Shown here piece by piece: positions 2,856 to 64,000 of a stretch of DNA of 64,000 bases. A model generated the notes under the pieces. That model was not told the DNA's origin. It saw only the letters and a list, made by a program, of their open reading frames with translations, and searched no databases. The number at the start of each line of letters is the position of its first letter. The stretch's first letter is position 1. The position numbers and the translations under genes were made by a program. The DNA comes from Kiritimatiellia bacterium (GTDB taxonomy: Bacteria > Verrucomicrobiota > Kiritimatiellia > RFP12 > JAAYLN01): the NCBI GenBank assembly GCA_017962605.1, contig JAGCUY010000180.1, positions 1-64,000 of the forward strand. The letters run 5' to 3'.

Positions 2856-2884
2856 TTGTTTGAATTGGGGCAGGGGAGTATAAT
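2856..2884 (+). promoter_or_regulatory. Promoter for the 1327-residue surface protein
   Basis: A -35 TTGTTT (2856-2861), a 17-bp spacer and a perfect -10 TATAAT (2879-2884) lie just upstream of a good ribosome-binding site (AAGGAG, 2909-2914) and the ATG at 2921. Confidence 0.65.
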
Positions 2885-2920
2885 GATTGCAACCTCTTAA
2901 CTAAAATAAGGAGCAGAAAA

Positions 2921-32391: not shown

Positions 32392-33528
32392 CTAGAAGAG
32401 TTCGCCCGACCATAATCGGGCAATGAACTCCTGCCACGGGAGAATGACTATTCCCTCAACGTCGCGCGGGCGCGGTTCCCTGCAGACAAGAATGCGGTGG
32501 CGGAACTGCCCCTCCTCGCCAATTGCGCGAAGTTCGCGGAGGTCATCCTTCGTCGCGTTGCGCGTGGTCTTGGTTTCAATTGCGACCTCCCCGTTCACAA
32601 CAAAATCCACTTCGAGGTTCGTCCGCGTTCGCCAGTAGGCGATTTCCGCATCGCGGCGAAATGTGTCCGCGTATGAGGATATCTCATGGAGTATCCAGCT
32701 CTCGAAGGCATGGCCGTATTCCGCCGTGCCGGGAACCAGTTCCCTGCGGCCTTGGAGGCGGTGCGCCACACCCGTGTCGAAAAGGTAGAATTTCGCCGTC
32801 TCGACTGTCTTGCGAGAGCGTCCCTTCTGCCATACGGGGACCTCGCGGGCAAGAAGCGTGTCCTTGAGAATCTTGAAATATTCCTGAACGGTGCTGCGCG
32901 CAATCTGAGCGTCAGAGGCAATGGCCTGGTAGTTTATCTGTTCGCCGCTCGACAGTGCGGCGACCTCAAGAAAGCGACTGAAGGCAGGAAGGTTGCGCGT
33001 CGCCCCCTCCTGCATTATCTCCTGCTCAAGATAAAGCGAAACATACCCTGCCAGGTCTTCATCCGGGTCGTCCGAGCCCCAAATGCCTGGGACAAGGCCG
33101 TGACTTAGTGCCTTGTCGAGATTGAAGCGCGTTCCGAGTTCTGATGCGGAAAAAGGGTGCAAATTCCGAATCCGCGCTCGTCCGCCGAGGAGATTGACTC
33201 CGCCTTTGCGCAATTTGCGGGCGCTTGATCCTGTAAGGAGGAAGCGGATGCCTTTTTCCTCAATCAGGCGATGGACTTCATCCAGCAACGAGGGCATCTT
33301 TTGGATTTCGTCTATGACAACGGGGCGGCCGTCGCCGCATGTCTCTTCGATGTAGTTCGAGTTTCGAGCCAGGCGCGTAAAGGTGTCGCCAGAAAGCAGG
33401 TCGAACACATGCGCGTCTGGCAGCGTTTCCCTTACAAGCGAAGTCTTACCGCACTGGCGCGGCCCGAAAAGGAAGCAGGACTTCTTCTGCAAGACGGAGG
33501 CTATGTCTAGTTTCCGAGCGACATACAT
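32392..33528 (-). CDS. AAA/DUF4143 ATPase, intact (locus 4)
   Basis: A 378-residue orphan ATPase. Walker A is FGPRQCGKTSL (about residues 20-30), Walker B RPVVIDEIQ, the sensor-like FLLTGSSARKLR follows, and the DUF4143 half ends with a nuclease-like core (LEVDFVVNGEVAIETK). ATG 33528 (MYVARKLD) follows GGGGTG at good spacing; the 17 upstream codons of the frame run into the promoter. The gene and its upstream repeats sit exactly between two copies of a long intergenic repeat. Role unknown; see the iteron finding. Confidence 0.88.
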   Translation of the reverse strand: MYVARKLDIASVLQKKSCFLFGPRQCGKTSLVRETLPDAHVFDLLSGDTFTRLARNSNYIEETCGDGRPVVIDEIQKMPSLLDEVHRLIEEKGIRFLLTGSSARKLRKGGVNLLGGRARIRNLHPFSASELGTRFNLDKALSHGLVPGIWGSDDPDEDLAGYVSLYLEQEIMQEGATRNLPAFSRFLEVAALSSGEQINYQAIASDAQIARSTVQEYFKILKDTLLAREVPVWQKGRSRKTVETAKFYLFDTGVAHRLQGRRELVPGTAEYGHAFESWILHEISSYADTFRRDAEIAYWRTRTNLEVDFVVNGEVAIETKTTRNATKDDLRELRAIGEEGQFRHRILVCREPRPRDVEGIVILPWQEFIARLWSGELF

Positions 33529-33578
33529 GGTTTCACCCCATTGGGAAAAGGACTTTATTATGATAAAAGATAGCAACA

Positions 33579-33607
33579 AGTTTAGCAGTTGAGAGCCGCT
33601 TTGTCAA
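33579..33607 (-). promoter_or_regulatory. Promoter of DUF4143 locus 4
   Basis: On the minus strand: perfect -35 TTGACA (33602-33607), 17-bp spacer, -10 TAAACT (33579-33584), about 50 bp before the start codon. Confidence 0.65.
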
Positions 33608-33609
33608 TG

Positions 33610-33668
33610 AAAATCGCCAACTATGTCGGCATTTTTGCAACAAAATCGCCAACTCTGTCGGCGATTTT
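33610..33668. repeat. Iteron-like repeats upstream of DUF4143 locus 4
   Basis: Two direct copies of AAAATCGCCAACTNTGTCGG (33610 and 33642, 32 bp apart). Each is also close to a palindrome (AAAATCGCC with GGCGATTTT). They lie immediately upstream of the -35. The motif is unrelated to the repeats at the other ATPase loci. Confidence 0.85.
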
Positions 33669-33697
33669 ACATCAAATGGGGTGGAAGTTTCCTATGA

Positions 33698-34114
33698 GAG
33701 GCAGGGAAACTGTCGAGTAGCCCGCTGCGCGGGCCAACGGCCTCGATGCGACAGCATTGATGCAAGCATCATGCGTCCGCATCCATGCCGTGCGGCTTCG
33801 CCACAGTGCGCCAGACTGGGAATCCGCCTCCGGCGGTTTGGAAAAGATTTTGGAAGGGGTTCGCAATCTGATGAGCCGTGTAGAAGTGGAGATGTAATTG
33901 AACCTCTACACCTCTACACGGCTTAAAGATCTTCCCCTTTTCCAGTTTTCCCGTGCCGCGAAGCGGCCTTCCCAATCTGCCGGGGGCGGCCATCGGCCGT
34001 GCGACAGGGCTGGCGACGCATGAAGCTTGCTTCAAGGCGGCGGCAGCCACGGCGTATGTGCGCGTAGCGCGTTCCCGGCAGTTTCCAAGGTTCGGCGCGG
34101 TAGCGCCTGGGAGG
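33698..34114. repeat. Long intergenic repeat, copy 2
   Basis: Second copy of the 32085-32380 repeat in the same orientation, with about 130 extra bases (33949-34080) between the CCTTTTCCAGTTT and CCAAGGTTCGG landmarks. Together the two copies frame the DUF4143 gene and its iterons as a 1.3-kb unit. Confidence 0.85.
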
Positions 34115-34132
34115 TTTGGCGCAAGCGCCTGG

Positions 34133-34202
34133 GAGGTTGAGAGGTTGAAATGTGAAAATGTGGAAATGTTGCCAATGGCCAATCCCTAATCCCGAATCCC
34201 GC
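34133..34202. repeat. Composite short repeat (GGAAATGT, TTGCCAATGGCC, AATCCCK)
   Basis: A string of intergenic modules also found at 39366-39495 and 46308-46375: GTGGAAATG-type 8-bp units, TTGCCAATGGCC, then AATCCCT/AATCCCG 7-bp units. It lies downstream of the gene at 34234 (minus strand). Confidence 0.75.
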
Positions 34203-34233
34203 TTGTTAACGATACGGGGAACAGGGTAGGGGA

Positions 34234-35958
34234 TTAGGGGGCGAGGAAGAGCGTCGCTATTTGCCAGCCCGGAAGATCGGGGATGACGACGACCAGTTCC
34301 TCAGGCGATGCCCCGTCCTCGCACTCGACGGCAATTGGCTCGGCCATTGTCGGGGTTTGCATGAAGACTTCACGCGAGACGGGACGGCGAATGCGCACGC
34401 GGAGTTCATCGGTGCCGCCAATAGACAGGTTGAGCAATGTGACGCTGTCGAGACGGCCATCTTCGCGGACTCGCAGCAGGATGCGCAGCGGGCGGATGGC
34501 ATCGACACGCACCGGGAATGTGCCGCCGGTCGCGGCGTCGAGGTCGTCGAGAAGCTTCGTCCGGCGGCTCGCCAGCGGATATTTCCCCATGTCCGCGACA
34601 TCAACGACTGCGCTCGAAGCGAGGACGGCCTTGTCGGCATCGGTCATTTCGCGGCGCGACTTGTCGGTCAAATACCAGACCTTCGTCCCGCTCTCGGCCA
34701 CGGTCACGGGGATCCCGGCGCAGGCGAGGTCAAAGTCCATGGGATCGCGTAGGTCGAAGTCTGGCGTCTCGCTGGCGGCAGAGCCAATGAACCGAGCCAC
34801 GCCTCCGAGGCGCGTTTTCCGCGTCGATGCGGCCAGGCGCTCGAAGTATGGGCGTGCGCGGTGGAGCGTTCGCAGGAAGCGGTCGTATTCCTCGACAGGC
34901 TCCGGCGCCTCCCCGGCGAACCAGTAGAGCGAGAGCGAGTCGCAGCCTGAGGCTAGGGCGAGGGCGCATTCTGTCATGATTGCCCCCGGTGACTTGTGCA
35001 GGACGTGGCGCGGGTAGGTCTCCTGCTCGTAGCAAACCGACGCGACGATGCCATCATAGGCGCGGCAGCGTTCGGCCTCGCGGGCGACGCTCAGGCACTT
35101 GGCGACCATTCCACGCGGCTCCGCCTCTGTGTAGAAGCCGGCGCCGGGTCGGATGCCTACCCGCTTGCGCGAAGACCCGGAGAGGGCCTCCAGCAGCGGG
35201 CGGTAGCTTGACGCGGTGTAGATGGTGTCCGACCATACCGCCTGATAGGCAAGGCGGCAGGGGCTTCCAAGCGCGTCTGCGGCTTCGCGGACTGTGGCGG
35301 CGTAAATGGCAAGCGACTCGGCGTTGAAGTCAATCCAGGCGGCGCGGAGCGGTTCCCTGGGGGAATCCGAGAAGAGGCGCTCGACAAGCGTCTCGCGCGT
35401 CCAGTTCCCGCCGGTCTTTTCGTTGAAGGCGGCGATGCAGCGCGGGCAGAAGCATCCGTGCGGCTTGCACACGCCCAGGCGGAGGTCGTCGTCGATCCAG
35501 TACGAGCCTGGGTTGACGACGCGCAGGACTGTCTTCGCGTAGTTGAATTCGTAGTCAAGGACAAGGGGCGAGCGCGGGCAGAGGAAGTTGATTCGCTCGC
35601 CGTCGCGGCCCATCTGCCAGGCATCTTCGGGGAAGGTCTGCTCGCCGGGCTTCGGCGTGCCGTCATGCGCCTCACCGTGGCCGAGCGTCAGCCCCTGCTG
35701 GTAGGAGGGGATGACGCCGATTTCATTGCATAGCGGACGGTAGGCGGCGAAGGTCGCGCATTCCTTCTCAAGCGCGGGGATTGTCTTGCGGGAGCCGGTC
35801 GCGAACCAGAACTCGTCGCATGCCCCCTGGTGGCGTCGGTGGCAGTCAACGAGCTGCCCGAAGAGGTCCGGACGCCCGTTGACTCCCATCGTGTGGCGGA
35901 TTACAATGAAGGGCCAGTCATCCGCGCCGCCAAGCGGCTTTCCAGACTTGTCTTTCAT
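34234..35958 (-). CDS. Glycoside-hydrolase-like TIM-barrel protein, substrate unknown
   Basis: A 574-residue protein without a signal peptide. It shows a TIM-barrel glycosidase flavour: FIVIRHTMGVNGRP near the start, YWIDDDLRLG, a Cys cluster GVCKPHGCFCPRCIAAFNEK like that of GH42-related proteins, then SLYWFAGEAPEPVEEY and a C-terminal beta domain. I do not recognise a defined family, and the catalytic acids cannot be placed with confidence. It follows leuS by 14 bp on the same strand, an odd pairing probably due to operon reshuffling. Confidence 0.6.
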   Translation of the reverse strand: MKDKSGKPLGGADDWPFIVIRHTMGVNGRPDLFGQLVDCHRRHQGACDEFWFATGSRKTIPALEKECATFAAYRPLCNEIGVIPSYQQGLTLGHGEAHDGTPKPGEQTFPEDAWQMGRDGERINFLCPRSPLVLDYEFNYAKTVLRVVNPGSYWIDDDLRLGVCKPHGCFCPRCIAAFNEKTGGNWTRETLVERLFSDSPREPLRAAWIDFNAESLAIYAATVREAADALGSPCRLAYQAVWSDTIYTASSYRPLLEALSGSSRKRVGIRPGAGFYTEAEPRGMVAKCLSVAREAERCRAYDGIVASVCYEQETYPRHVLHKSPGAIMTECALALASGCDSLSLYWFAGEAPEPVEEYDRFLRTLHRARPYFERLAASTRKTRLGGVARFIGSAASETPDFDLRDPMDFDLACAGIPVTVAESGTKVWYLTDKSRREMTDADKAVLASSAVVDVADMGKYPLASRRTKLLDDLDAATGGTFPVRVDAIRPLRILLRVREDGRLDSVTLLNLSIGGTDELRVRIRRPVSREVFMQTPTMAEPIAVECEDGASPEELVVVIPDLPGWQIATLFLAP

Positions 35959-49794: not shown

Positions 49795-49848
49795 GTGAAC
49801 AAAACATCCCCGATTGTGCTTAATTAATTAGGAGATATTATTGTTCAC
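49795..49848. promoter_or_regulatory. Inverted repeat upstream of sigma factor 1
   Basis: GTGAACAA (49795-49802) and TTGTTCAC (49841-49848) are perfect inverse complements 38 bp apart, bracketing an AT-rich stretch (TTAATTAATTAGGAGATATT) and ending 3 bp before the ATG. TGAAC is also the core of many ECF -35 elements, so autoregulation by the sigma factor is conceivable. This is inference. Confidence 0.45.
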
Positions 49849-49851
49849 CGC

Positions 49852-52800
49852 ATGGACATCGTTGAAGAACTAAGGCGTGACCGCGAAAAGGGCGCAAGGC
49901 GGCTTGAGGTTGAATACAAGGCCGGCCTCATGTCGCTCGCGCGTCGCTTTGGCGTGAACGACTCCGATGCCGAGGAACTGGTGAACAGCACTTTCGCCAC
50001 GGTTGTTGAGAACATCGACGACTACATTGAGCAGTCGGCCTTCTTCGCGTGGATGTGCCAGATACTGACGAGCAAGTATTCGCGGAGCATAAGGCGCAAG
50101 TCAACCCAGATGGAGGTTTTCCCCGGAACTGTTCCCGACCTGGTTGACGAATCGGCGCAGGAGGCGATATACAGCAACCTTGACGCCTCGCTGCTTCGCG
50201 ACGCCGTTGGCCAATTGCCGGAAGACCAGCGCGAGGTTATTATCCTCAGGTATTTCGTGGACATGCCGATCTCCAAGATAGCGAAATACCTCTCCATTCC
50301 ATCGGGAACGGTTCGCAGCCGCCTTCACTACGCGCGCAAGGCGCTGGCGCTGAAGATGGGCGCCAAGATGAACGATGTCGTGAAGAAGCCCGGCGGCAAG
50401 GCCGTGATCCTGGCGCTGCTGCTCTGCGGCCTCACTGCGCTTGGCGCGGGGGTTAAGCTTGCTGTTGCCCGCTTGATGCCGTCGCCGCCGCTCGCCGTGG
50501 AACAGCAAGCGGACAACAGCAAGGACGCAGGGCAGGCGACAGGCGACCCGCGACAAGCCGAGGCTTACGTAGCCACCCAGTCGGCAACCGATTGCTATCG
50601 GCCACCGGCAACCGAAAACTCCAACTTTTCAACCGATAACTCGCAAGGAGAACAAAACATGAATATCACCACAACACGCACCGCAGCCATGCTCGCGGCC
50701 GGAACAATGGCTCTCGCCGCGTCACCGTCGGCGCAGGCCTCAATGGATAACTGGCAGGGCAATGCCGCCTCGCCGTGCGTTGTCATTGCCGTAGATGTTG
50801 ACATGTCGCTCTCCGAGGCGCTCACGGCAAATAACGTCAGCCTCACCGGCGCCGCGTCGCTCGTCAAGCTAGGCAACGGCACCGTCACAGTCGATGATGA
50901 GAGCGGCATCGGCTCCTTCGCCGGCGACATCCATGTGTTTAAGGGCGGGTGGTCCGTCGGCACTGCGGCGGGCTTTGGCACCTCCGCCGGCTCTACATGG
51001 GTTTATCCGAACGGCTGCGTCCTCATAACCGATGTGACGGTCCCGCACACGGGCGAGACCTTCCACCTCGCTGGCACTGGCATTTCGGATTGGTATGGCT
51101 GGGGCGCGATCCGCTTCCCGTCCAGCTCGCAGGAATCGGCCGTCATGGCGGCCGGCGCCTACGGTTCGCGCTGGATTCTCGAGGGCGACGCCACGGTGAT
51201 GCTGGCCACCGGCCCCTCCGTTTCCGGTCAGGCATCTTTCCTCCCCGCCGTTGATCTGGAACTGAACGGCCACGAGCTGACGCTCTGGCGCGGCCACTAC
51301 GGGACAATCGCGACGACCAAGCTCTATGGGAACTTCAACAGCGTGACCGGCGCCGGCGGCATCGTCTGCAGGAACGGCGTCCAGTTCATCGACTACTGCT
51401 TCAGCCTCCCCGGCACGGCGGCGAACTCAATCGTTCTCCAGAATGCGCGCCTCAATGTTTGGGAGACGAAGGCGATGAACACCCCCTGGCGGCTTGTCGC
51501 AAGGCCCACGCCCATTGCCGACTGGCATGGGAACGCTACGACCCAGGCGGCGCTCATGCCGAGACTTCGGCTCTATGCCTGGGGCAACCGCGACAGGGCA
51601 GGGGAACATGACTTCCAGATATGGCCTGGGCCGGTGACGCTGGAAGGCGACCTCTGGATAGAGATGGAGAACCAGAGCCGCATCCAACCGATGACCTTCA
51701 CGAACAAGGTCACTGGCGCAGGCGGCTTCGCCGTCACGACTGGCAAGGCGTGGCTCTACCTCGACTGCCCCGAAAACGACTTCCAAGGCGGCGTGACGCT
51801 CTGCGGGCCGGATGACCGCCTCGTCCTCGCGAATGACGGCGCGCTCCCCGCTGACGGCGGGCGGCTGCTGATGACGAACTCAGTCGTGACCTTCCCTTCG
51901 ACCGTTTCCGCGCCGTGGTCTCTTCCGGCGCTTGAACTCGCCGGCGCGAGCGAGGTCCGAAACTGCCAGGGCAGCTGGAAGAGCGTCACCGCCCTTGATG
52001 GCGCCAACGCCCAGTACAGTTCCGCGCTCGGCGCAAGCAACCTCGTTGTGAAGTCCGGCGCGAAACTCACGGTTCATTCGCTTTTCGACCCCGCCACCTA
52101 CGCCGGATGGGAGGAATACTACGATGTCAACCACAGCACGACGGACCTTTCGCAACTGCAATACCAAGGAGTCCAGTCCTATCCGCGGTATTTCGAGAAC
52201 AACAGTTTCCGGGATCTCCCGGATTCAAACAACGCCACCCGGACGTCCACGCGCACGATTGCCTACGCCACCTACCTCTGGAATCATGGCTCGTCCGATG
52301 GGACCTGGACGTTCGCGGGGCATTTCGGCTCGCACGTTTACATCTGGCTCAACGGACAGCGGATTCTCGCGCTCACCGCGGGCAACGCCTGGCGCAACCC
52401 CTACCGCGTCACCGGGACGCTTCACCCCGGCGCAAACCGGCTCGTCGTCCTTTCCGACAACTGTAGCTGGGGGGCGACCGCCGACACAAACTCCGGCAAC
52501 GACATCGGGACATGGACGGGAGTGAACTACAAGGGATTCGCATACGCCGAAGGCGACGTGTCGCTTGCAGAATGCAGCGACTTCAGCGTCCCGACCGACC
52601 CTGGCGACGGCTCATTCTGCACGACGAAGTGCGGCGACGAGGCTTTGGACGGCATCGCGTGGGCGCCGTCGTTCCAGAACCTCGCGATGGAGGCGGACTC
52701 CACGCTTTGCCTTGACGGTGCGTTGAGCGTCGAGACCGCCAAGGGCGCAGGCCTAGTCACGAATGGCACCCTCACCGTGACGCGGGCGCTGGATGTTGAT

Positions 52801-53076
52801 CCTACAATCTTCGAGCGCAACGGCGGCATCGCCGTCGATGGCGACCTCGTTTTCGGCTCCGGGGCGAAAGTCTCGTTTGCGGACTCCGACAACTACAGCA
52901 AGGAAGCGGCCGGGGCCTACACGCTGGCGACGGCCACTGGGGCCATCACCGGCTTCGACTCGTCGATGCTGGAACTCGGCGGAAAGCGGCGGTGCTGGAA
53001 AGTCCAGCTGATCAACGGCGGCAAGGAACTTGTCCTTGAACTCATCCCGCCGGCGACAACCTTCATCTGCAAATAG
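49852..53076 (+). CDS. Membrane-tethered ECF sigma factor 1, open in frame into surface protein A
   Basis: A 1074-codon frame. Residues 1-170 are an ECF sigma factor: region 2 at about 25-85 (DAEELVNSTFATVVENI, FFAWMCQILTSKY) and region 4 at about 112-168 (LPEDQREVIILRYFVDMPIS, IPSGTVRSRLHYARKAL). A membrane helix follows at about 183-203 (VILALLLCGLTALGAG), then a linker of about 65 residues made largely of 7-bp DNA repeats. No stop codon precedes the internal start at 50659, which has its own ribosome-binding site and signal peptide. Translation may therefore give a sigma factor covalently joined to protein A, or ribosomes may start separately at 50659. No anti-sigma gene is nearby. Paralogue at 62340. 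Confidence 0.8.
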   Translation: MDIVEELRRDREKGARRLEVEYKAGLMSLARRFGVNDSDAEELVNSTFATVVENIDDYIEQSAFFAWMCQILTSKYSRSIRRKSTQMEVFPGTVPDLVDESAQEAIYSNLDASLLRDAVGQLPEDQREVIILRYFVDMPISKIAKYLSIPSGTVRSRLHYARKALALKMGAKMNDVVKKPGGKAVILALLLCGLTALGAGVKLAVARLMPSPPLAVEQQADNSKDAGQATGDPRQAEAYVATQSATDCYRPPATENSNFSTDNSQGEQNMNITTTRTAAMLAAGTMALAASPSAQASMDNWQGNAASPCVVIAVDVDMSLSEALTANNVSLTGAASLVKLGNGTVTVDDESGIGSFAGDIHVFKGGWSVGTAAGFGTSAGSTWVYPNGCVLITDVTVPHTGETFHLAGTGISDWYGWGAIRFPSSSQESAVMAAGAYGSRWILEGDATVMLATGPSVSGQASFLPAVDLELNGHELTLWRGHYGTIATTKLYGNFNSVTGAGGIVCRNGVQFIDYCFSLPGTAANSIVLQNARLNVWETKAMNTPWRLVARPTPIADWHGNATTQAALMPRLRLYAWGNRDRAGEHDFQIWPGPVTLEGDLWIEMENQSRIQPMTFTNKVTGAGGFAVTTGKAWLYLDCPENDFQGGVTLCGPDDRLVLANDGALPADGGRLLMTNSVVTFPSTVSAPWSLPALELAGASEVRNCQGSWKSVTALDGANAQYSSALGASNLVVKSGAKLTVHSLFDPATYAGWEEYYDVNHSTTDLSQLQYQGVQSYPRYFENNSFRDLPDSNNATRTSTRTIAYATYLWNHGSSDGTWTFAGHFGSHVYIWLNGQRILALTAGNAWRNPYRVTGTLHPGANRLVVLSDNCSWGATADTNSGNDIGTWTGVNYKGFAYAEGDVSLAECSDFSVPTDPGDGSFCTTKCGDEALDGIAWAPSFQNLAMEADSTLCLDGALSVETAKGAGLVTNGTLTVTRALDVDPTIFERNGGIAVDGDLVFGSGAKVSFADSDNYSKEAAGAYTLATATGAITGFDSSMLELGGKRRCWKVQLINGGKELVLELIPPATTFICK
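50659..53076 (+). CDS. Surface protein A (autotransporter-repeat/PA14-like), internal start
   Basis: An 805-residue exported protein read from an internal ATG with an ideal Shine-Dalgarno (AAGGAG, 8 bp away) and a signal peptide (MNITTTRTAAMLAAGTMALA, cleavage near AQA). The body has an N-terminal module (MSLSEALTANNV, SGIGSFAGDIHVFKGGWSVG) and an autotransporter-associated strand repeat (AGGFAVTTGKAWLYLDCPEN, DFQGGV). A PA14/sandwich-like domain follows (TWTFAGHFGSHVYIWLNGQR). It ends ATTFICK. The same modules form the C-terminal half of protein B and all of protein D, with near-identical DNA in places. Probable surface glycan-binding protein. It ends 8 bp before gene B. Confidence 0.8.
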   Translation: MNITTTRTAAMLAAGTMALAASPSAQASMDNWQGNAASPCVVIAVDVDMSLSEALTANNVSLTGAASLVKLGNGTVTVDDESGIGSFAGDIHVFKGGWSVGTAAGFGTSAGSTWVYPNGCVLITDVTVPHTGETFHLAGTGISDWYGWGAIRFPSSSQESAVMAAGAYGSRWILEGDATVMLATGPSVSGQASFLPAVDLELNGHELTLWRGHYGTIATTKLYGNFNSVTGAGGIVCRNGVQFIDYCFSLPGTAANSIVLQNARLNVWETKAMNTPWRLVARPTPIADWHGNATTQAALMPRLRLYAWGNRDRAGEHDFQIWPGPVTLEGDLWIEMENQSRIQPMTFTNKVTGAGGFAVTTGKAWLYLDCPENDFQGGVTLCGPDDRLVLANDGALPADGGRLLMTNSVVTFPSTVSAPWSLPALELAGASEVRNCQGSWKSVTALDGANAQYSSALGASNLVVKSGAKLTVHSLFDPATYAGWEEYYDVNHSTTDLSQLQYQGVQSYPRYFENNSFRDLPDSNNATRTSTRTIAYATYLWNHGSSDGTWTFAGHFGSHVYIWLNGQRILALTAGNAWRNPYRVTGTLHPGANRLVVLSDNCSWGATADTNSGNDIGTWTGVNYKGFAYAEGDVSLAECSDFSVPTDPGDGSFCTTKCGDEALDGIAWAPSFQNLAMEADSTLCLDGALSVETAKGAGLVTNGTLTVTRALDVDPTIFERNGGIAVDGDLVFGSGAKVSFADSDNYSKEAAGAYTLATATGAITGFDSSMLELGGKRRCWKVQLINGGKELVLELIPPATTFICK

Positions 53077-53084
53077 GAGGACGC

Positions 53085-56000
53085 ATGAACCCGGAAATGA
53101 AGTTGAAGGCCATTGGCGCCTTTCTGGCCCTTGCCGCGCCCCTCGCCCTTTTGGCCGATGGGTTGAGCAACCCCGGCTTCGAGAGCAACCTGACTGGCTG
53201 GACAACCTACTCAAACATGGCGGCGGACTCGACCGTGGCCCATTCCGGTTCAAAGTCGGCCCGAATAACGGTCTCGAACCCCAGCAGCGACCACACGGCC
53301 ATGACCCTCTATGTTGCCGTTACGTCCGGCCGCACATACACCGCGACATGCCAGGTTCGGACGGAGAACGTGAGCGAAGTCACAAGCGCGGGCAACAATG
53401 GGACAAAGGGCGCCTGCCTTAACGTCGAGTGGTACAATTCAAGCAAGACGTGGCTGGCGTCCGGCAAGTATTCGAAGAGCCTGTGGGGCACCGCTGACTG
53501 GCGTCTTGCCGTCTGCAGTGGCCTTGCGGCACCAACTGGCGCGGCGTATGCGAAGATCAGCCTGATGGTGCGCGGCAACGGGAAGGCCTGGTTTGACGAC
53601 GTGACCTTCGGCCTCGACAAGGGTCCAGTCACCCGCATCTCCCCCGCAAGCGGGGCGTCGCTTGCCGACAACACCCCGCTCTTCTCCTGGGCGTTCAAGG
53701 GCGGCGTGGGCACTTACACCCTCCAGGTTTCGCAAAACGAGGACTTCCCCTACGGGAGCACATTGGAGCGCGAAGTCGTGGCGTCCACATCCTACCAGTG
53801 GGATTCCCTCCTGGCTCCGGGAACATGGCATTGGCGCGTCTTGGCGGAAGGATGCCCAGACGCCTCGTCATGGACGTTCACACAGACGGCGGCGACCTCC
53901 CGCGACTGCCTCCCGCCGCGTTGTTCCGACATCGCTTGCCGCGTAACGGACGCCGAGGAGACCTTCTGGCTCCAGGTGACCTCCGAGGACGGCCTATCGG
54001 ACATTCGCCTCGGCGACTGGGAGGGCACTGTGGCCCAGCGCGTGGGCGACGTTCTCCACTGCAAGTTCATCTCGCCGGATGGCGGATGGCCGGCGGGGCT
54101 GACCGAAACAAACCTCGTCGCGACCGACAATGCCGGCAACGCCTCGACCAACCTCTTCTGGCTCCTCAACGCGCCGCAGCCCGCGAACGTCGTGACGATT
54201 GACGGCAACGGCTTCTACCGCGTGGGTGGCGAACGCTTCTTCCCGCTCATGATCTTCGAGGTGGAGCTTGGCGACATGGCCGACGTCGCGGCGGCGGGCT
54301 TCGACGTGGTACACAACTACAAGTGGGAGAAGAACCGCAGCGTCAACAGCGTCCGCTCCTACCTCGACACCTGCACCGCCAACGGCCTGCGGGCCTTCGT
54401 TGGCTTCGACCGCGGCACAATCACCGAAGAAGGCCTCATCCAAGGCGATATCGCACGTGTCGCGCAGCGTGTCGGCGCCCTCGCAGACCATGCCGGCCTT
54501 TTCTGCTGGTACCTCTACGACGAGCCGGACAAGGCGGATCCCGTCGTCACCCCCGAATTCGCGAAGAAGGCCGCCAACCTCGTGCGGACGCTCGACCCCT
54601 GGCACCCGGTCACGCTCACGACCGGGCGGGAAAACTCGGCCGCCTACCGCGATGCCTGCGACACCTACTGGGCGCAGGCCTACGGCACCTGGGCCGAAGG
54701 CTTCGGCAACCCGAAGGCTGTTGCAAGCCGAATCGACGAGATGCCATCATATATGGGCGGAGACACTTCCCCAGTCACCGTGCTCCTGAACTGCAACGAC
54801 AGGGAGCAGGGCGAATTGCGGAAACAGGGTGTAGAGCCTGACCCGTCGAAGTTCGCACGAGACTACGACCATCTGCGGGCGTGTGCCTTCCTTGGTCTAG
54901 CCAAGGAGTGCAACGGCGACTGCTGGTGGTGGTTTGGCCGGGACTCGGACGATTTCTACTCCGCCGCGCAGTGCCCTCCGGCCTGGACCAACCTCTCGGC
55001 CATCGTCCAGGAACTCCGCGTCATGCGCCGGTACGCCCATGCCGCCGGCACCGTTTCCACTGGCACCGCCACAAGCGGCTCGAACAAGGTGGCCTGGTGG
55101 TACAAGACGATGTCCGATGGCTCCGCCTTCGTCGCGGTCAACACCTCCTCCAACGCCGTCTCGGTCAATCTGACCCTCCCAGGCCTGGCGTCGCGGAGCG
55201 TTACGTTCCGCGGCCACGAGGTGAAGACCGGCTACATGGCCAGTCCAGTCGATACGTCAATCATTGACTCGCCCGTGATCGCGCTTTCGCCAGACACGGA
55301 CATGACGCTCTCGGAGGCGCTGGCCAACGCCGGCGTTTCCAGCCTCGGTACGAAGGGAACCATCTACAAGTATGGCAAGCGAACCATAACCGTCGATGAC
55401 GCAAGCGGCATCGGCTCCTTCACTGGCGACATCCACGTCTGCGAGGGCGGGTGGTCCGTCGGCACGGCCGCTGGTTTCGGCACCTCCGCCGGCGAGACAT
55501 GGATTGACGATGGTGCCTGCGTCCTCATAACCGATGTGACGGTCCCGCACACGGGTGAGACTTTCCACCTCGCCGGAACGGGCAAGTCCGACTGGTATGG
55601 CTGGGGCGCGATCCGCTTCCCGTCCAGCTCGCAGGAATTGGCCACGATGGCCGTCGGCGCATACGGCTCCCGCTGGATTCTCGAAGGCGACGCGACCGTC
55701 ATGCTCGCCACTGGCCCCACGACGACGGCCCACAGCGGCTTCCTCCCCGCCATTGACCTCGACCTCAACGGCCACGAACTGACGCTCTGGCGCGGCCACT
55801 ACGGCACCATCGCGACCACCAAGCTCTACGGCAACTTCAACAGCGTGACCGGCGCGGGCGGCATCGTCTGCAAGAACGGCGTCCAGTTCATCGACTACTG
55901 CTTCAGTCTCCCCGGCACTGCCGACAACTACATCGCGCTCCAGAACGCGCGCCTCAACGTCTGGGAGACGAAGGCCATGAACACCCCGTGGAGGCTCGTC

Positions 56001-57551
56001 GCGAAGCCGACGCCGCTCTCCGAATGGCACGGGAACGCCACGACCCAGGCGGCGCTCATGCCGAGACTTCGGCTCTACTCCTGGGGCAACCGCGACAGGG
56101 CAGGGGAACACGACTTCCAGATATGGCCTGGACCGGTGACGCTGGAAGGAGACCTCTGGATAGAGATGGAAAACCAGAACCGTTGCCACCCGATGACCTT
56201 CACGAACAAGGTCACGGGCGCAGGCGGCTTCGCCGTCACGACGGGCAAGGCATGGCTCTACCTCGACTGCCCCGAGAACGACTTCCAGGGCGGCGTGACG
56301 CTCTGCGGGCCGGATGACCGCCTTGTCCTCGCGAACGATGGCGCCCTCCCTGCGGACGGCGGGCGGCTGTTGATGACGAACTCAATCGTGGCCTTCCCCT
56401 CGACCGTTTCCGCACCGTGGTCGCTTCCGGCGCTCGAACTCGGCGGCACGAGCGAGGTCCGAAACTGCCAAGGCAACTGGAAGAGCGTCACCGCGCTGTC
56501 CGGCGCTGACGCCTCCTACAAGTCAGCCCTCGGCGCCGACGACCTGATTCTCAAGTCCAGCTCGAAGCTCACGATCCATTCGCTTTTTGACCCCGCCGCG
56601 TATGCGGGCTGGGAGGAGCACTACACGCTGGCATCGGCTCCGACGGAATTCGCCGACATCCCACTCGTCGGAAGGCGGAACGACCCCCGCTATCTCCAGA
56701 ACAACAGCTTCCCGAAACTGACCGCGCCAAGTGGTTCGACAGGTCGCTCATTGGCCTATTCGACCTACATCTGGAACCACAGCCAGGATTACCAGACCTG
56801 GACCTTCGCGGGCCATTTCGGGGGGCGGATCATGATCTTCCTGAATGGCGTGAAGATTCTCGACTACAACCAGTGGCGCAACCCCTACCGCGTCACGGGG
56901 ACGCTTCGCCCTGGTCCCAACAAGGTTGTCGTCGTCGCCCCGTCATGCACTTGGGCCGCCACGGCGGACGGCGCCAGCGGCACATGGGCTGGCATCAACT
57001 ACAAGGGCTTCGTCTATTATCCGGGCGAACACGAGCTTGACGACCAGGCTAGCTATCTCTTCCCAGACGACCCCGGCGACGGCTCCTTCTGCACGACGAT
57101 GAGCGGCGACGAGTCAATCGACGGCGTCCAGTGGTCCCCGCATTTCAAGTCTCTCACGATGGAGCAGGGGTCTGTCCTCGATTTGGATGGAGGCACATTG
57201 AGCGTGGAGACCGCAACGGGTTCAGGCACGGTCGTAAACGGCTCCCTGGCCATTGCGGAGACGCTTGCCGTCGATGCCGGCGTCCTCGAGGGCGATGGAG
57301 GCATCGTGGTCAATGGCAACCTCTCCTTTGGTGCGGGGGCCAAGATTCACTTCCCGGATGCCGACGCCTATTATGGGGCGACAACTGAGGAGTTCACGCT
57401 TGCCACCGTTACGGGCACAATCAGCGGCTTCAAGCCATCCATGCTTGACCTCGGCAACCAGCATTCATCCTGGGGCGTTGGCCTTTCGGCGAACGGGAAT
57501 GCGATTCTCCTCAGGCGCATCCCTGTGCAGACGGTGCTGATGCTCCAGTGA
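53085..57551 (+). CDS. Protein B: CBM + TIM-barrel enzyme fused to the surface module
   Basis: A 1488-residue secreted protein (signal peptide ending LLADG; AGGAGG 4 bp before the ATG). Domains in order: a CBM4/9-like carbohydrate-binding module (about 25-175, GLSNPGFESNLTGWTTYS), a fibronectin-III-like domain (about 180-275) and a TIM-barrel glycosidase-like domain (about 365-690). The last has the acid-type motif FCWYLYDEPD and CWWWFGRDS. After a short beta segment ending near residue 722 comes the complete protein A/D surface module to the C-terminus. Gene C has only the first part and genes A and D only the second, so B looks like a fusion of both types. It is likely a surface-bound glycosidase. 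Confidence 0.8.
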   Translation: MNPEMKLKAIGAFLALAAPLALLADGLSNPGFESNLTGWTTYSNMAADSTVAHSGSKSARITVSNPSSDHTAMTLYVAVTSGRTYTATCQVRTENVSEVTSAGNNGTKGACLNVEWYNSSKTWLASGKYSKSLWGTADWRLAVCSGLAAPTGAAYAKISLMVRGNGKAWFDDVTFGLDKGPVTRISPASGASLADNTPLFSWAFKGGVGTYTLQVSQNEDFPYGSTLEREVVASTSYQWDSLLAPGTWHWRVLAEGCPDASSWTFTQTAATSRDCLPPRCSDIACRVTDAEETFWLQVTSEDGLSDIRLGDWEGTVAQRVGDVLHCKFISPDGGWPAGLTETNLVATDNAGNASTNLFWLLNAPQPANVVTIDGNGFYRVGGERFFPLMIFEVELGDMADVAAAGFDVVHNYKWEKNRSVNSVRSYLDTCTANGLRAFVGFDRGTITEEGLIQGDIARVAQRVGALADHAGLFCWYLYDEPDKADPVVTPEFAKKAANLVRTLDPWHPVTLTTGRENSAAYRDACDTYWAQAYGTWAEGFGNPKAVASRIDEMPSYMGGDTSPVTVLLNCNDREQGELRKQGVEPDPSKFARDYDHLRACAFLGLAKECNGDCWWWFGRDSDDFYSAAQCPPAWTNLSAIVQELRVMRRYAHAAGTVSTGTATSGSNKVAWWYKTMSDGSAFVAVNTSSNAVSVNLTLPGLASRSVTFRGHEVKTGYMASPVDTSIIDSPVIALSPDTDMTLSEALANAGVSSLGTKGTIYKYGKRTITVDDASGIGSFTGDIHVCEGGWSVGTAAGFGTSAGETWIDDGACVLITDVTVPHTGETFHLAGTGKSDWYGWGAIRFPSSSQELATMAVGAYGSRWILEGDATVMLATGPTTTAHSGFLPAIDLDLNGHELTLWRGHYGTIATTKLYGNFNSVTGAGGIVCKNGVQFIDYCFSLPGTADNYIALQNARLNVWETKAMNTPWRLVAKPTPLSEWHGNATTQAALMPRLRLYSWGNRDRAGEHDFQIWPGPVTLEGDLWIEMENQNRCHPMTFTNKVTGAGGFAVTTGKAWLYLDCPENDFQGGVTLCGPDDRLVLANDGALPADGGRLLMTNSIVAFPSTVSAPWSLPALELGGTSEVRNCQGNWKSVTALSGADASYKSALGADDLILKSSSKLTIHSLFDPAAYAGWEEHYTLASAPTEFADIPLVGRRNDPRYLQNNSFPKLTAPSGSTGRSLAYSTYIWNHSQDYQTWTFAGHFGGRIMIFLNGVKILDYNQWRNPYRVTGTLRPGPNKVVVVAPSCTWAATADGASGTWAGINYKGFVYYPGEHELDDQASYLFPDDPGDGSFCTTMSGDESIDGVQWSPHFKSLTMEQGSVLDLDGGTLSVETATGSGTVVNGSLAIAETLAVDAGVLEGDGGIVVNGNLSFGAGAKIHFPDADAYYGATTEEFTLATVTGTISGFKPSMLDLGNQHSSWGVGLSANGNAILLRRIPVQTVLMLQ

Positions 57552-57579
57552 CAATGATTCATTTGCACGTTTGACTAAA

Positions 57580-59724
57580 ATGCCTGGAAAGACCTTGCCA
57601 ATATTGTTAGGAGCGATGGCCGCCATTGCGGCCATCGCCTCGACTCCCGTATCCACGCCACCCACTTCCTCGGCATTCGGCGAGGGCTTTGAGAACGGGG
57701 CCGACGGCTGGGAAGGTGGTGCCAACATGGCTCTGGACACTGCCGTCGCCCACACTTGCGGAAGTTCAGCCCGCCTCGTTGTCGCCGACCCGACGCGCGA
57801 TCCAGTTTACATCACGCGCAAAGTCCCCATTGAAGCCGGAGCATACTACACCGCATCGTGCTTCGTCAGGACGGAAAACGTCGTCGAGGCGCAGGGCGCG
57901 AAGTGGTCGGTCGGCGCCGGCCTCATCGTCGAGTGGGCCAACCGCGACGGCGCGTGGATGAAGTCCGGCCAATACGCCTGCGGGCTGCGCGGGACGGAGG
58001 ACTGGCGCCGCGTCGAATGCAATTCCCTGAAGGCCCCCGACGAGGCCGGGTTCGCAATCCTTTTCCTTACGCTCCGCGACGCCGGGACGGCCTGGTTCGA
58101 CGATGTCTCGCTTGAGCGCGTGGACGTCAGCATCGAAAAGGTGTCGCCAGGGGAGGGCGCAACCTTTGCCAACAACTGCCCGTTCTTTGAATGGAAGTCA
58201 ATGCCTGGAATCCGCTCCTATACTTTGGAACTCTCGCAAGACCCGTCGTTCGCGCCTGGGGCGACGCTGTCCTTCGCGGCGGGCGGGCTGCCGAGGTTCC
58301 AGCTCCGCGAACCACTGGAGCCGGGCGTTTGGCACTGGCGCGTCGTCGCGCATGGACTGCAGGACAGCCACCCAAGGTCTTTCACGCAGACCGCACCGCA
58401 GGATCGCGACTGCCTCCCGCCACTTGTCGCTACCAGGGCGGCGCGCGTCACGCGTGGTGACGAACCGTTCGCGGTTGAGGTCGAGGGCGACGACCTTGCT
58501 GTTGTCCTCTTGCTGTTTGGCGCGGAGACGGCCATCGGGCAGCAAGCGGACAGCGGCAAGCGGACAATGGCAAGGATGGTTCCCCCAGCCGGCGGCTGGC
58601 CGGAAGGCCTTACCGAAGGCCGGCTCATCGCATCTGATGCGTCAGGCAACGCCTCGACAACCGACTTCTGGCTTCTCAACGAGTCGGCCCCGGCGAACGC
58701 CGTGGCCATAGGCGCGGACGGCTTTTACCATGAGAATGGCCAGCGCATCTTCCCGCTGATGATCTACGAGGTCGAGCCGGGCGACATGGCCGACATCCGC
58801 GAAGCCGGCATCGAGGTCGTCCACAACTACCGCTGGGAGAAGACGCAGGATGACGCCTCCTGCCGCGCCTGGCTCGACGCATGCGCCACGAATGGGCTGC
58901 GCGCCTTTATTGGATTCGACCGCGGCATCCGCACCGGCAGAGGAATGGTGCAGGGCAACCTGGCGTGCGTCGCGCGCCGTGTCGGCGCACTTGCAAGCCA
59001 CCCGGCGCTTTTCTGCTGGTATCTCTTTGACGAGCCGGAATGGCTCAACCAGTTCATTACTGCCGAATCCATGATTGAGTTCGCCGATCTCGTCCGGGCC
59101 CTCGACCCGTTCCACCCCGTCGTGGTGACCACCTGGGGCGAGCAGATGAAGTCCTACCGCCGCTCCTGGGATACGCACTGGACACAGGCCTACGGCAAGC
59201 CCGCCGATGTCGATGACCAGCTGGACGAGCATTTCCGATTCCTCGACAACGATTCGCCGGTCACGCTTGTGGCATGTTGCAACGACACCGCGCAGGGTGA
59301 GCGGCGCAGGCGTGGAGTCGAGCCCGACCCGACGAAGTTCGCGCGAGACCGCGACCACATGCGGGCATGCGCCTTCCTAAGCATTGTCAAGGGGTGCAAC
59401 GGCCTGGCCTGGTGGTGGTTCGGACGCGGCTCGACTGAATATTATTCCGCCGCCCAGTGCCCTCCGGCGTGGGAGGACATGAAAGGCATTGTCGCTGAAC
59501 TCCGCTGCCTGCGGCCAATGCTCGCCGCCGACGGAACAGTCGAAAGCGGTTCGGCGCGCGATGGCGACGCCCGCGTGAAGTGGTGGCTCAAGCGCGCGGG
59601 CGGCAGGACTGTGTTCATCGCCGTCAACACCGCCGACCACCCCGTCACCGTGACAATCGACACGCCCGAAGGCAGGCGCCGCCTTGACCTGCGACGCTAC
59701 GAGGTTCGCGTCGAGGGGCTGTAA
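57580..59724 (+). CDS. Protein C: secreted CBM + TIM-barrel glycosidase-like protein
   Basis: A 714-residue exported protein (hydrophobic alanine-rich leader, ILLGAMAAIAAIA). Domain order matches the first half of protein B: CBM4/9-like (about 30-175), fibronectin-III-like (about 180-270), TIM-barrel (about 365-680) with FCWYLFDEPEW and AWWWFGRGS, and a short C-terminal strand domain ending RRYEVRVEGL. The start is uncertain: ATG 57580 lacks a ribosome-binding site, TTG 57571 is in frame, and ATG 57616 follows AGGAG too closely. A GCGGACA/GCGGCAA heptad run (58539-58575) lies inside the gene. Substrate unknown. Confidence 0.78.
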   Translation: MPGKTLPILLGAMAAIAAIASTPVSTPPTSSAFGEGFENGADGWEGGANMALDTAVAHTCGSSARLVVADPTRDPVYITRKVPIEAGAYYTASCFVRTENVVEAQGAKWSVGAGLIVEWANRDGAWMKSGQYACGLRGTEDWRRVECNSLKAPDEAGFAILFLTLRDAGTAWFDDVSLERVDVSIEKVSPGEGATFANNCPFFEWKSMPGIRSYTLELSQDPSFAPGATLSFAAGGLPRFQLREPLEPGVWHWRVVAHGLQDSHPRSFTQTAPQDRDCLPPLVATRAARVTRGDEPFAVEVEGDDLAVVLLLFGAETAIGQQADSGKRTMARMVPPAGGWPEGLTEGRLIASDASGNASTTDFWLLNESAPANAVAIGADGFYHENGQRIFPLMIYEVEPGDMADIREAGIEVVHNYRWEKTQDDASCRAWLDACATNGLRAFIGFDRGIRTGRGMVQGNLACVARRVGALASHPALFCWYLFDEPEWLNQFITAESMIEFADLVRALDPFHPVVVTTWGEQMKSYRRSWDTHWTQAYGKPADVDDQLDEHFRFLDNDSPVTLVACCNDTAQGERRRRGVEPDPTKFARDRDHMRACAFLSIVKGCNGLAWWWFGRGSTEYYSAAQCPPAWEDMKGIVAELRCLRPMLAADGTVESGSARDGDARVKWWLKRAGGRTVFIAVNTADHPVTVTIDTPEGRRRLDLRRYEVRVEGL

Positions 59725-62339: not shown

Positions 62340-64000
62340 ATGGACATTGTCGAAGAACTAAGAAGAGACCGCGAGAATGGCGCGAAGAGGCTAGTTGAGG
62401 AATACAAGACTGGCCTCATGACGCTTGCGCGCCGTTTTTGCCGTAATCCAAGCGATGCCGAGGAACTGGTTAACCGCACCTTTGCGGCCGTAGTCGAAGG
62501 CATAGACGGTTTCCTCGAGCAGTCTTCTTTCTTCACATGGATGTGCCAGATTCTGGTGAACCTTAACGCCAATGACAACCGGCGCAAGGCGAACGGGGAC
62601 ATTGTCTATCCCGGCGAACTGCCGGAAGTCGCCGACGAATCCGCCGATGATGGCGTTTACAGGGCTTTGGATGCGGCGCTTTTGCGAGATGCCATCAGGA
62701 CGCTGCCTGAGGATATCCGCAAGACGGTCGTTTTGCATTACTTCATGGAGATGAGCGTGAAGGACATCGCGCGTTTCCTGGCCATACCAACCGGCACCGT
62801 GATGTGGCGTCTCCACTATGCGCGGAAGATGCTGGCGGTAAAGATGGGGGCTGCGGCGAAGAAACCCGGCGGCAAGGCCGTGATTCTGGCGCTGCTGCTC
62901 TGCGGCCTCACCGCGCTCGGCGCAGCGGTATGGCACCTCGCCGTCCCCGGCGAGGTGCAGAACCCCGCCGATGCCGGCATGTCGCTTGTCGCAAGTCGCA
63001 TGTCGTCTTCCGCCCAAACCTCCTCCTCCAACTTGCCGCAATCTCCTTCAGGGGTTGCGGGTTCCCCACAGCGACAAGCGGAGGCTTCCAACCTTTCAAC
63101 TTTTCAACCTTTCAACTTTTCAACCGATAACTCACCAGGAGAAACTATGAACATAACCACAACCAAACGCACCGCAGCCATGCTGGCCGCGGCAACGGTC
63201 GCGACGGGAGCGACGCTATCCACCCCTGCATCGACGGTGACAATAAGCGTGCCGGCTGTAGCAGACTATACGCTAGCCGAGGCGTTCGCGAACGGATGCG
63301 TTTCTGGCGCGTCCGATGTAGCCGCGCTTTGCGCCGCAGACGACCTCCAGATTGACGGTGCCGGTCGCCTAATCATTGACCAAGACCTCAAGACCGCCGG
63401 TTTCGCTGGCGAAATCCATGTGAACGCCGGAGCGACGCTGCGCCTTGCGGTCACAGGCGCACTTGGCGATACCGCGCACGGCACCTTCGTCGCCGATGGC
63501 GCGACGCTGGAAACGCTGGCCTCCGGTGGAACATCGCTCGACTTCTACGGCGAGCCGGTTTCTTTCGCCGGGACGGGCGTCGATGGAACCGGCGCCCTGA
63601 AGGCTCTCTCCACCACTGTGCAGCGCAACGGTGCCTGGGGCGGCTCCGTCCTCACGATGACGGGTGATGCAACCATCTCTCAGGCCACGCACCAGAACCA
63701 GTTATTCCCGATAGGAGATAGCGCCTCAACGCTCAACATGAACGGCTTCGACTTGACTATCGTTGGTTTGCACCCGAATGACAACCTGACCTTCCGACCA
63801 ACAATCTCCAACCCTGGCAACATCGTGGCGACGAACGTCCACCTTGTTGTCCGCCATCAGGCGGTTTTCCCCGGTGGTGCCGCGCATACCCTCACTATTT
63901 CCGCGAACGCACGACTTCAGCTCTTCTCCTGCTCGGAGGCGACGCGCGGCAACCGCACATGGACGATTTCCATTCCGCAAGGCGGTTTGTCTGATGCACT
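62340..64000 (+). CDS. Membrane-tethered ECF sigma factor 2, open in frame into surface protein E (runs off window)
   Basis: Paralogue of sigma factor 1, starting MDIVEELRRDRENGAKRL. Region 2 (DAEELVNRTFAAVVEGI, FFTWMCQILVNL) and region 4 (LPEDIRKTVVLHYFMEMSVK, IPTGTVMWRLHYARKML) are conserved. The membrane helix (GGKAVILALLLCGLTALGA) is almost identical in protein and DNA to that of sigma 1. The linker is built from two 7-bp repeat runs (GCATGTC type at 62977-63005, TTCAACY type at 63089-63124). There is again no stop: codon 270 is the ATG of protein E, exactly as in sigma 1. The frame is still open at the window end. Confidence 0.8.
   Translation, partial: MDIVEELRRDRENGAKRLVEEYKTGLMTLARRFCRNPSDAEELVNRTFAAVVEGIDGFLEQSSFFTWMCQILVNLNANDNRRKANGDIVYPGELPEVADESADDGVYRALDAALLRDAIRTLPEDIRKTVVLHYFMEMSVKDIARFLAIPTGTVMWRLHYARKMLAVKMGAAAKKPGGKAVILALLLCGLTALGAAVWHLAVPGEVQNPADAGMSLVASRMSSSAQTSSSNLPQSPSGVAGSPQRQAEASNLSTFQPFNFSTDNSPGETMNITTTKRTAAMLAAATVATGATLSTPASTVTISVPAVADYTLAEAFANGCVSGASDVAALCAADDLQIDGAGRLIIDQDLKTAGFAGEIHVNAGATLRLAVTGALGDTAHGTFVADGATLETLASGGTSLDFYGEPVSFAGTGVDGTGALKALSTTVQRNGAWGGSVLTMTGDATISQATHQNQLFPIGDSASTLNMNGFDLTIVGLHPNDNLTFRPTISNPGNIVATNVHLVVRHQAVFPGGAAHTLTISANARLQLFSCSEATRGNRTWTISIPQGGLSDA
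63147..64000 (+). CDS. Surface protein E, internal start, partial
   Basis: At least 284 residues, cut by the window end. The ATG at 63147 is preceded by AGGAG and followed by a signal peptide (MNITTTKRTAAMLAAATVAT) closely related to that of protein A. The body is beta-rich (TLAEAFANGCV, TAGFAGEIHVNAGATLRLAV), similar in layout to the A/D N-terminal module but diverged. It is in the same frame as sigma factor 2. Confidence 0.75.
   Translation, partial: MNITTTKRTAAMLAAATVATGATLSTPASTVTISVPAVADYTLAEAFANGCVSGASDVAALCAADDLQIDGAGRLIIDQDLKTAGFAGEIHVNAGATLRLAVTGALGDTAHGTFVADGATLETLASGGTSLDFYGEPVSFAGTGVDGTGALKALSTTVQRNGAWGGSVLTMTGDATISQATHQNQLFPIGDSASTLNMNGFDLTIVGLHPNDNLTFRPTISNPGNIVATNVHLVVRHQAVFPGGAAHTLTISANARLQLFSCSEATRGNRTWTISIPQGGLSDA

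Follow-up and report, generated by a model that had tools for sequence, protein, structure and literature searches.

The 64,000-nucleotide (nt) stretch of a Kiritimatiellia genome analysed here (assembly GCA_017962605.1, contig JAGCUY010000180.1; "the window") carries at 49852-53076 on the forward strand an uninterrupted open frame of 1074 codons, in which an extracytoplasmic function (ECF) sigma factor reads into a surface protein. Is this an error, a sensor made as one polypeptide, or a gene with two products? A preliminary description of the window had listed sigma regions 2 and 4, a hydrophobic helix, a linker, a Shine-Dalgarno (SD) sequence, an ATG and the signal peptide of a beta-rich protein, all in one frame, and had left the choice between a one-polypeptide sensor and a long form accompanied by a short one. 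Every one of these elements is present (Table 1), and the answer that we consider likely is a transmembrane ECF sigma factor made in one piece, whose gene gives two products and which acts as a self-regulating glycan receptor.

The sigma part was recognized by Pfam (Sigma70_r2 at residues 22-84, E 6e-7; Sigma70_r4_2 at residues 114-165, E 2.5e-15) and the protein scores above the cut-off of the NCBIfam model sigma70-ECF (TIGR02937). In line with ECF membership, regions 2 and 4 are present and region 3 is absent according to Pfam; the top structural matches are AlgU, SigE, SigW and RpoE. Between the end of region 4 (residue 165) and the start of the first transmembrane helix (TM1, residue 182) lie only about 15 residues, which leave no room for an anti-sigma domain, and no Pfam match to one was found there. 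The adjacent membrane anti-sigma gene that is canonical for ECF factors is also missing at this locus, as had been noted earlier: the downstream genes encode secreted enzymes and surface proteins, and the upstream gene a cytosine/purine-type permease. Beyond TM1, disorder is predicted for residues 209-305, and the segment that starts at the internal ATG at 50659 (H2) is 27 residues long, Ala-rich and signal-peptide-like with a C-terminal AQA. The CBM35/PA14-like fold in the ectodomain was found by Foldseek with high probability and weak E-values.

The source genome was surveyed as a whole (4.18 Mb, 231 contigs). It contains 17 readable one-frame copies of the order sigma, transmembrane helix, linker, signal segment and ectodomain, including that of the window, and further copies are cut by contig ends. 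The paralogues are mostly 53-68% identical to the window protein in their N-terminal part. A search of related genomes, which the preliminary description had proposed, yielded dozens more copies from the same genus and from other families of the order, with up to about 20 per genome. The named records that carry the family are mostly metagenome-assembled genomes (MAGs) of Kiritimatiellae or Verrucomicrobia from rumen, omasum and other ruminant gut, and in a wider sample of the class it is present in few genomes. The window gene is thus a member of a large conserved family and neither a quirk nor an error. A sequencing error or lost stop is ruled out, since the frame is uninterrupted in every readable copy of the genome and also in independent assemblies.

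Throughout the linker the frame is strictly kept. No in-frame stop occurs in the 5029 codons of 72 distinct linkers, which come in 37 lengths from 41 to 94 codons. The other two frames of the same linkers hold 57 and 107 stops, which rules out an open frame by chance. No conserved stop separates sigma factor and surface protein in the relatives, the observation on which the preliminary description had let the fusion stand or fall. Clear exceptions to the open frame are few; in one of them (L079) the sigma reading frame ends at a TGA that overlaps the ATG of the surface protein (ATGA), and two others (L055 and L106) look broken. In two other relatives (L096 and L098) TM1 runs into a LamG-like ectodomain, with neither a second hydrophobic segment nor an internal signal peptide. 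Because the frame is kept across such variable linkers, and because these two fusions exist without an internal signal peptide, we conclude that the long form is selected. The sigma part is under purifying selection, with a ratio of nonsynonymous to synonymous substitution rates (dN/dS) of ~0.25; the corresponding value for the ectodomain is contaminated by short copies and was not used.

The internal start carries the marks of a translation initiation site. Of 72 genes, 59 have an SD-like motif ahead of the internal Met, compared with 106 of 896 (12%) for control internal Mets, and the Gly codon within the motif is always GGA in this genome, though GGA makes up 16% of Gly codons. In 73/73 cases the RNA at the internal ATG has less structure than windows elsewhere in that gene (mean z +2.4), and the GC content dips from ~0.70 to 0.44. 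In one relative (L108) the ATG is missing from its usual position. We read the internal start as conserved on purpose, like the frame. With both the frame and the initiation signals kept, the two options weighed in the preliminary description are each supported, and one gene probably gives both a membrane-tethered sigma receptor and a secreted ectodomain; we infer that both proteins accumulate. On an approximate scale, TM1 far exceeds H2 in hydrophobicity in 73/73 members, and TM1 is therefore predicted to anchor the long form with the sigma factor inside, H2 being carried across. In the short form H2 would be an ordinary signal peptide, which would remove the conflict of two consecutive membrane signals. 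The linker DNA 5′ of the internal ATG (e.g., in L002, L010 and L011) contains repeats of TTTCAACCTTTCAACTTTTCAACC and SNLPQSPSGVAGSPQR-type units, and the TTTCAACC repeat of linkers is also seen upstream of the sigma gene in C30.

These signals could also be relics of a once separate surface gene, with the long form as the only product that counts and the short form scarce or absent. Such a reading would fit L096 and L098, which keep the fusion without the internal signal peptide, as well as L108, and it would fit two two-gene relatives (C187 in this genome, L033 in a related one) in which the chain of transmembrane segment, linker, signal segment and ectodomain already exists after a separate sigma gene. 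A relic should decay, however, whereas the SD and the unstructured initiation region are kept across genera, and in L079 use of the internal start is obligatory. We therefore consider it unlikely. A second alternative shifts the weight to the short form: the ectodomain would be made mainly from the internal start by translational coupling, and read-through would be a tolerated by-product that parks the sigma factor at the membrane. The strong internal initiation signals and the ATGA overlap of the split L079 are what it would predict, but coupling does not need a common frame, yet not one of the 72 linkers of 37 lengths has a stop; without a stop the sigma factor is obtainable only as a fusion, and some fusions have no internal start to couple to. 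We find this alternative unlikely as well.

A two-block motif (AACC-like, N12, G-(G/C)-(T/C)-ATTATT-like) was found upstream of 62 members, with a spacer of exactly 12 in 57 of them and a motif score of 554 vs 269-283 for shuffled sets. By sequence, its AAC-type -35 and constant spacer are those of an autoregulated ECF promoter. The -35 element follows the recognition helix of region 4: ATC-type elements pair with STVKW, TTVKW and RTVKW, AACA with GTVRS, AATA with GTVLS, AAGG or AAGC with GTVNS and GTVHS, and GTVK helices have mostly AACC or AACG. Whether the helix has Ser or Trp predicts which base precedes the -35 (counts 19/2/2/34, Fisher P 6e-11; 57 distinct sigma4 regions). In a search for a wider regulon with one strict pattern, the window promoter matched only itself in the genome with up to 2 mismatches allowed, and the same was true of C91b. 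Private autoregulation of each member would be the natural reading of these sequences. The 5′ leaders fold better than shuffled sequences in ~40% of the genes, which is suggestive only (mean z -1.1 over 65 leaders). Some leaders (L010, L003, L084, L016) form strong hairpins that enclose the GGAGG-like SD of the sigma start; the window's own leader (49827-49851) is unstructured.

The modules of the gene appear to have been exchanged. The window's genome and a relative of the same genus share a surface gene (L011 and L062) with 99.4% DNA identity over a stretch that begins 3 codons ahead of the internal ATG and takes in the next gene, whereas the sigma DNA of the two is only 66% identical. This break at the internal start is either a recent exchange or an assembly chimera. 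The reverse is seen in L063 and L101, which are 97% identical from 590 bases upstream to just past TM1 and then diverge, and similar breaks occur in the pairs L078/L075, L083/L092 and L056/L095; chimeric MAG contigs could explain some of them. That the 5′ module (promoter, sigma, TM1, linker and start) is a domain-shuffling cassette which serves mainly for driving and diversifying surface proteins in the style of antigenic variation, and less for sensing, would suit the L011/L062 pair and the reverse cases L063/L101 and L078/L075, but is highly improbable given that each sigma covaries with its own promoter and is under purifying selection (dN/dS ~0.25), that the downstream genes are often enzymes, and that chimeric contigs may underlie some junctions.

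From the frame, the anatomy, the internal start signals, the promoter with its covariation and the neighbouring genes, all read from sequence, the transmembrane sigma receptor can be pictured as follows. Translation from the first start would give a protein of ~1070 residues that spans the inner membrane through TM1, with its sigma factor in the cytoplasm and its linker and ectodomain outside. As no stop interrupts the frame, every sigma factor would be born tethered to its receptor. From the internal SD and ATG on the same mRNA the ectodomain alone would be made, with a cleavable signal peptide, and this secreted copy would be a working surface protein that competes with the sensor for ligand. 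The family's ectodomains include LamG, CBM60, beta-helix, PATR, LRR and lyase folds and are in part lectin- or CBM-like, and close downstream genes across the family encode GH5, GH28, GH39, pectate-lyase-like proteins, esterases, deacetylases and sulfatase-modifying enzymes; plant glycans are the ligands suggested by these sequences. Glycan binding, or a failure of assembly, would lead to a cut outside and then to an intramembrane cut that frees the sigma factor, a proteolytic release that we infer. The free sigma factor would act on its own promoter and so raise the output of receptor, secreted ectodomain and linked glycan enzymes alike, in a private positive loop, and paralogues differing in sigma4 helices, promoters and ectodomains would make up a repertoire. 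More tentatively, the gene may be a dual-coded receptor whose secreted ectodomain is both effector and decoy, setting the threshold of the sensor, with in-frame exchange of sigma-promoter and ectodomain modules rewiring which glycan is paired with which operon; we hold this extension to be possible, at somewhat less than even chances.

Several observations weigh against this picture. The AlphaFold model of the full chain is good for sigma region 2 and poor for the ectodomain (pTM 0.35), so that the ectodomain model is of low confidence, and many ectodomains of the family have no Pfam match. The linker sequence is weakly constrained, with a dN/dS of only ~0.63. In a tree built without the helix, 3 of about 8 helix and promoter changes coincide on a branch where 0.5 would be expected, and shared ancestry therefore explains part of the covariation. 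RseP-type M50 and Prc-type S41 proteases are encoded in the genome, but these are widespread protease types whose presence proves nothing in particular. Finally, some surface proteins without a sigma factor share the C-terminal tail of the fusions, which weakens the tail as a sigma-specific signal.

The nearest known system in design is ECF52 (SCO4117 of Streptomyces coelicolor), a single chain for which positive autoregulation and proteolytic release have been proposed (PMC5826349; PMC8999054). Like the present family, it has sigma factor, transmembrane segment, disordered linker (proline-rich in ECF52) and ectodomain on one chain; the ectodomain of ECF52 is carbohydrate-binding, and those of the Kiritimatiellae may be. 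Where the present family has ~15 residues ahead of the membrane, ECF52 carries a zinc-finger anti-sigma domain, and ECF52 has been described as exclusive to Actinobacteria (PMC5826349). The Kiritimatiellae family differs further in its host, in having an internal start followed by a second signal peptide, and in its up to ~20 copies per genome. IutY (ECF243) of Pseudomonas putida, a sigma/anti-sigma fusion in siderophore cell-surface signalling, is freed by Prc and RseP (PMC8999054). It too joins a sigma factor to a membrane segment with a periplasmic part, but carries an anti-sigma domain, for which the present fusion has neither room nor a Pfam match, and the present fusion has its ectodomain on the same chain. 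By analogy, the M50 and S41 proteases of the genome would permit an IutY-like release. The nearest known system in use is SigI/RsgI of cellulolytic clostridia, in which paralogous autoregulated sigma factors with outside glycan-sensing modules control polysaccharide-degrading genes (PMC6056542). That system consists of two proteins, the sigma factor and the anti-sigma factor RsgI, whereas here the ECF-type sigma factor itself bears the membrane helix and the ectodomain.

Closer to home, the ectodomain proteins of the two-gene relatives C187 and L033 end in the same kind of tail as the fusions, and an AAC-type promoter lies upstream of C187. They differ in that the sigma gene is separate and the membrane protein begins with a short cytoplasmic domain at the anti-sigma position, for which no NCBIfam match was found in C187. 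A plausible origin of the fusion is that this domain was lost and the sigma factor itself joined to the receptor. Its sequences set the family apart by the absent anti-sigma domain, the internal start, the copy number and the apparent module swapping, and a literature search, with subscription papers outside its reach, gave no description of such an arrangement in Kiritimatiellae. If true, it would be among the simplest pathways from the outside to a promoter, with receptor, anchor and sigma factor in one chain and no anti-sigma factor, and one that uncultured rumen bacteria carry in many copies of orthogonal appearance, linked to genes for the breakdown of plant glycans. The matching sigma4 helices and -35 elements offer a natural data set, ready for use, on sigma/promoter specificity, and the sensor-plus-secreted-copy design can be tested directly through the conserved internal start.

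Table 1. Features of the sigma-receptor gene at 49852-53076 and of the genes downstream of it (window coordinates).
Feature	Coordinates	Strand	Basis
ECF-type promoter: -35 AACAAAA (49798-49804), 12-nt spacer, -10-like TGCTTAATTA (49817-49826)	49798..49826	+	Two-block motif
Long product (sigma, TM1, linker, signal segment, ectodomain), 1074 aa	49852..53076	+	Open frame, domain searches, paralogue comparison
Sigma-70 region 2, residues 22-84	49915..50103	+	Pfam PF04542; AlphaFold pLDDT mostly ~90 or higher
Sigma-70 region 4, residues 114-165; recognition helix SGTVRSRLHYARK	50191..50346	+	Pfam PF08281; helix/-35 covariation
Transmembrane helix TM1, residues 182-208	50395..50475	+	Kept in all paralogues; predicted helix; hydrophobicity
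Disordered linker; length varies across the family, frame always kept	50476..50658	+	Linker comparison; disorder prediction
Internal Shine-Dalgarno AGGAG	50646..50650	+	AGGAG core in 17/17 readable copies of the genome
Internal ATG and signal-peptide-like segment H2 (MNITTTRTAAMLAAGTMALAASPSAQA)	50659..50739	+	Start-signal, hydrophobicity and RNA-structure comparisons
Beta-rich ectodomain with CBM35/PA14-like fold	50740..53073	+	Sequence comparison; Foldseek
C-terminal tail ATTFICK, variant of the family tail (F/T, hydrophobic residues, R/K)	53053..53073	+	Tail comparison
Secreted protein: CBM_4_9-like N-terminus, glycosidase-like middle, ectodomain copy at C-terminus	53085..57551	+	Pfam CBM_4_9; middle judged from sequence
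Related glycosidase-like secreted protein lacking the ectodomain copy; TTG 57571 or ATG 57580 as start	57571..59724	+	No Pfam match
Stand-alone secreted ectodomain copy, 810 aa	59778..62210	+	Sequence comparison
Second sigma-TM-ectodomain fusion, 972-aa open frame running beyond the window end	62340..64000	+	Paralogue comparison

Downstream of 53076 the genes at 53085, 57571 and 59778 form an operon-like run of secreted proteins. The first starts 8 nt after 53076, and its C-terminal half is ~69% identical to the window ectodomain; the protein at 59778 is 64% identical to the same ectodomain. While the preliminary description had the fusion itself right, it overlooked this run and the second fusion at 62340.

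Most fusions end in the F/T-hydrophobic-R/K tail, as do some other surface proteins, among them those at 2863-6901 (+) and 33168-35211 (-) of the window. The tail is enriched (58/76 vs 7/73 and 15/318) and is possibly a sorting signal or a protease recognition tail. Seven relatives (L083, L051, L092, L077, L091, L081 and L108) have sigma, TM, linker and signal segment followed by a very short outside part and the usual tail. Another one-chain sigma-TM fusion, which lacks the C-terminal tail, was seen in two further genomes (L133 and L136, from G037 and G051). Judged from its sequence, its outside part resembles a helical repeat domain of the squalene-cyclase/prenyltransferase type, which suggests that the one-chain design arose more than once.

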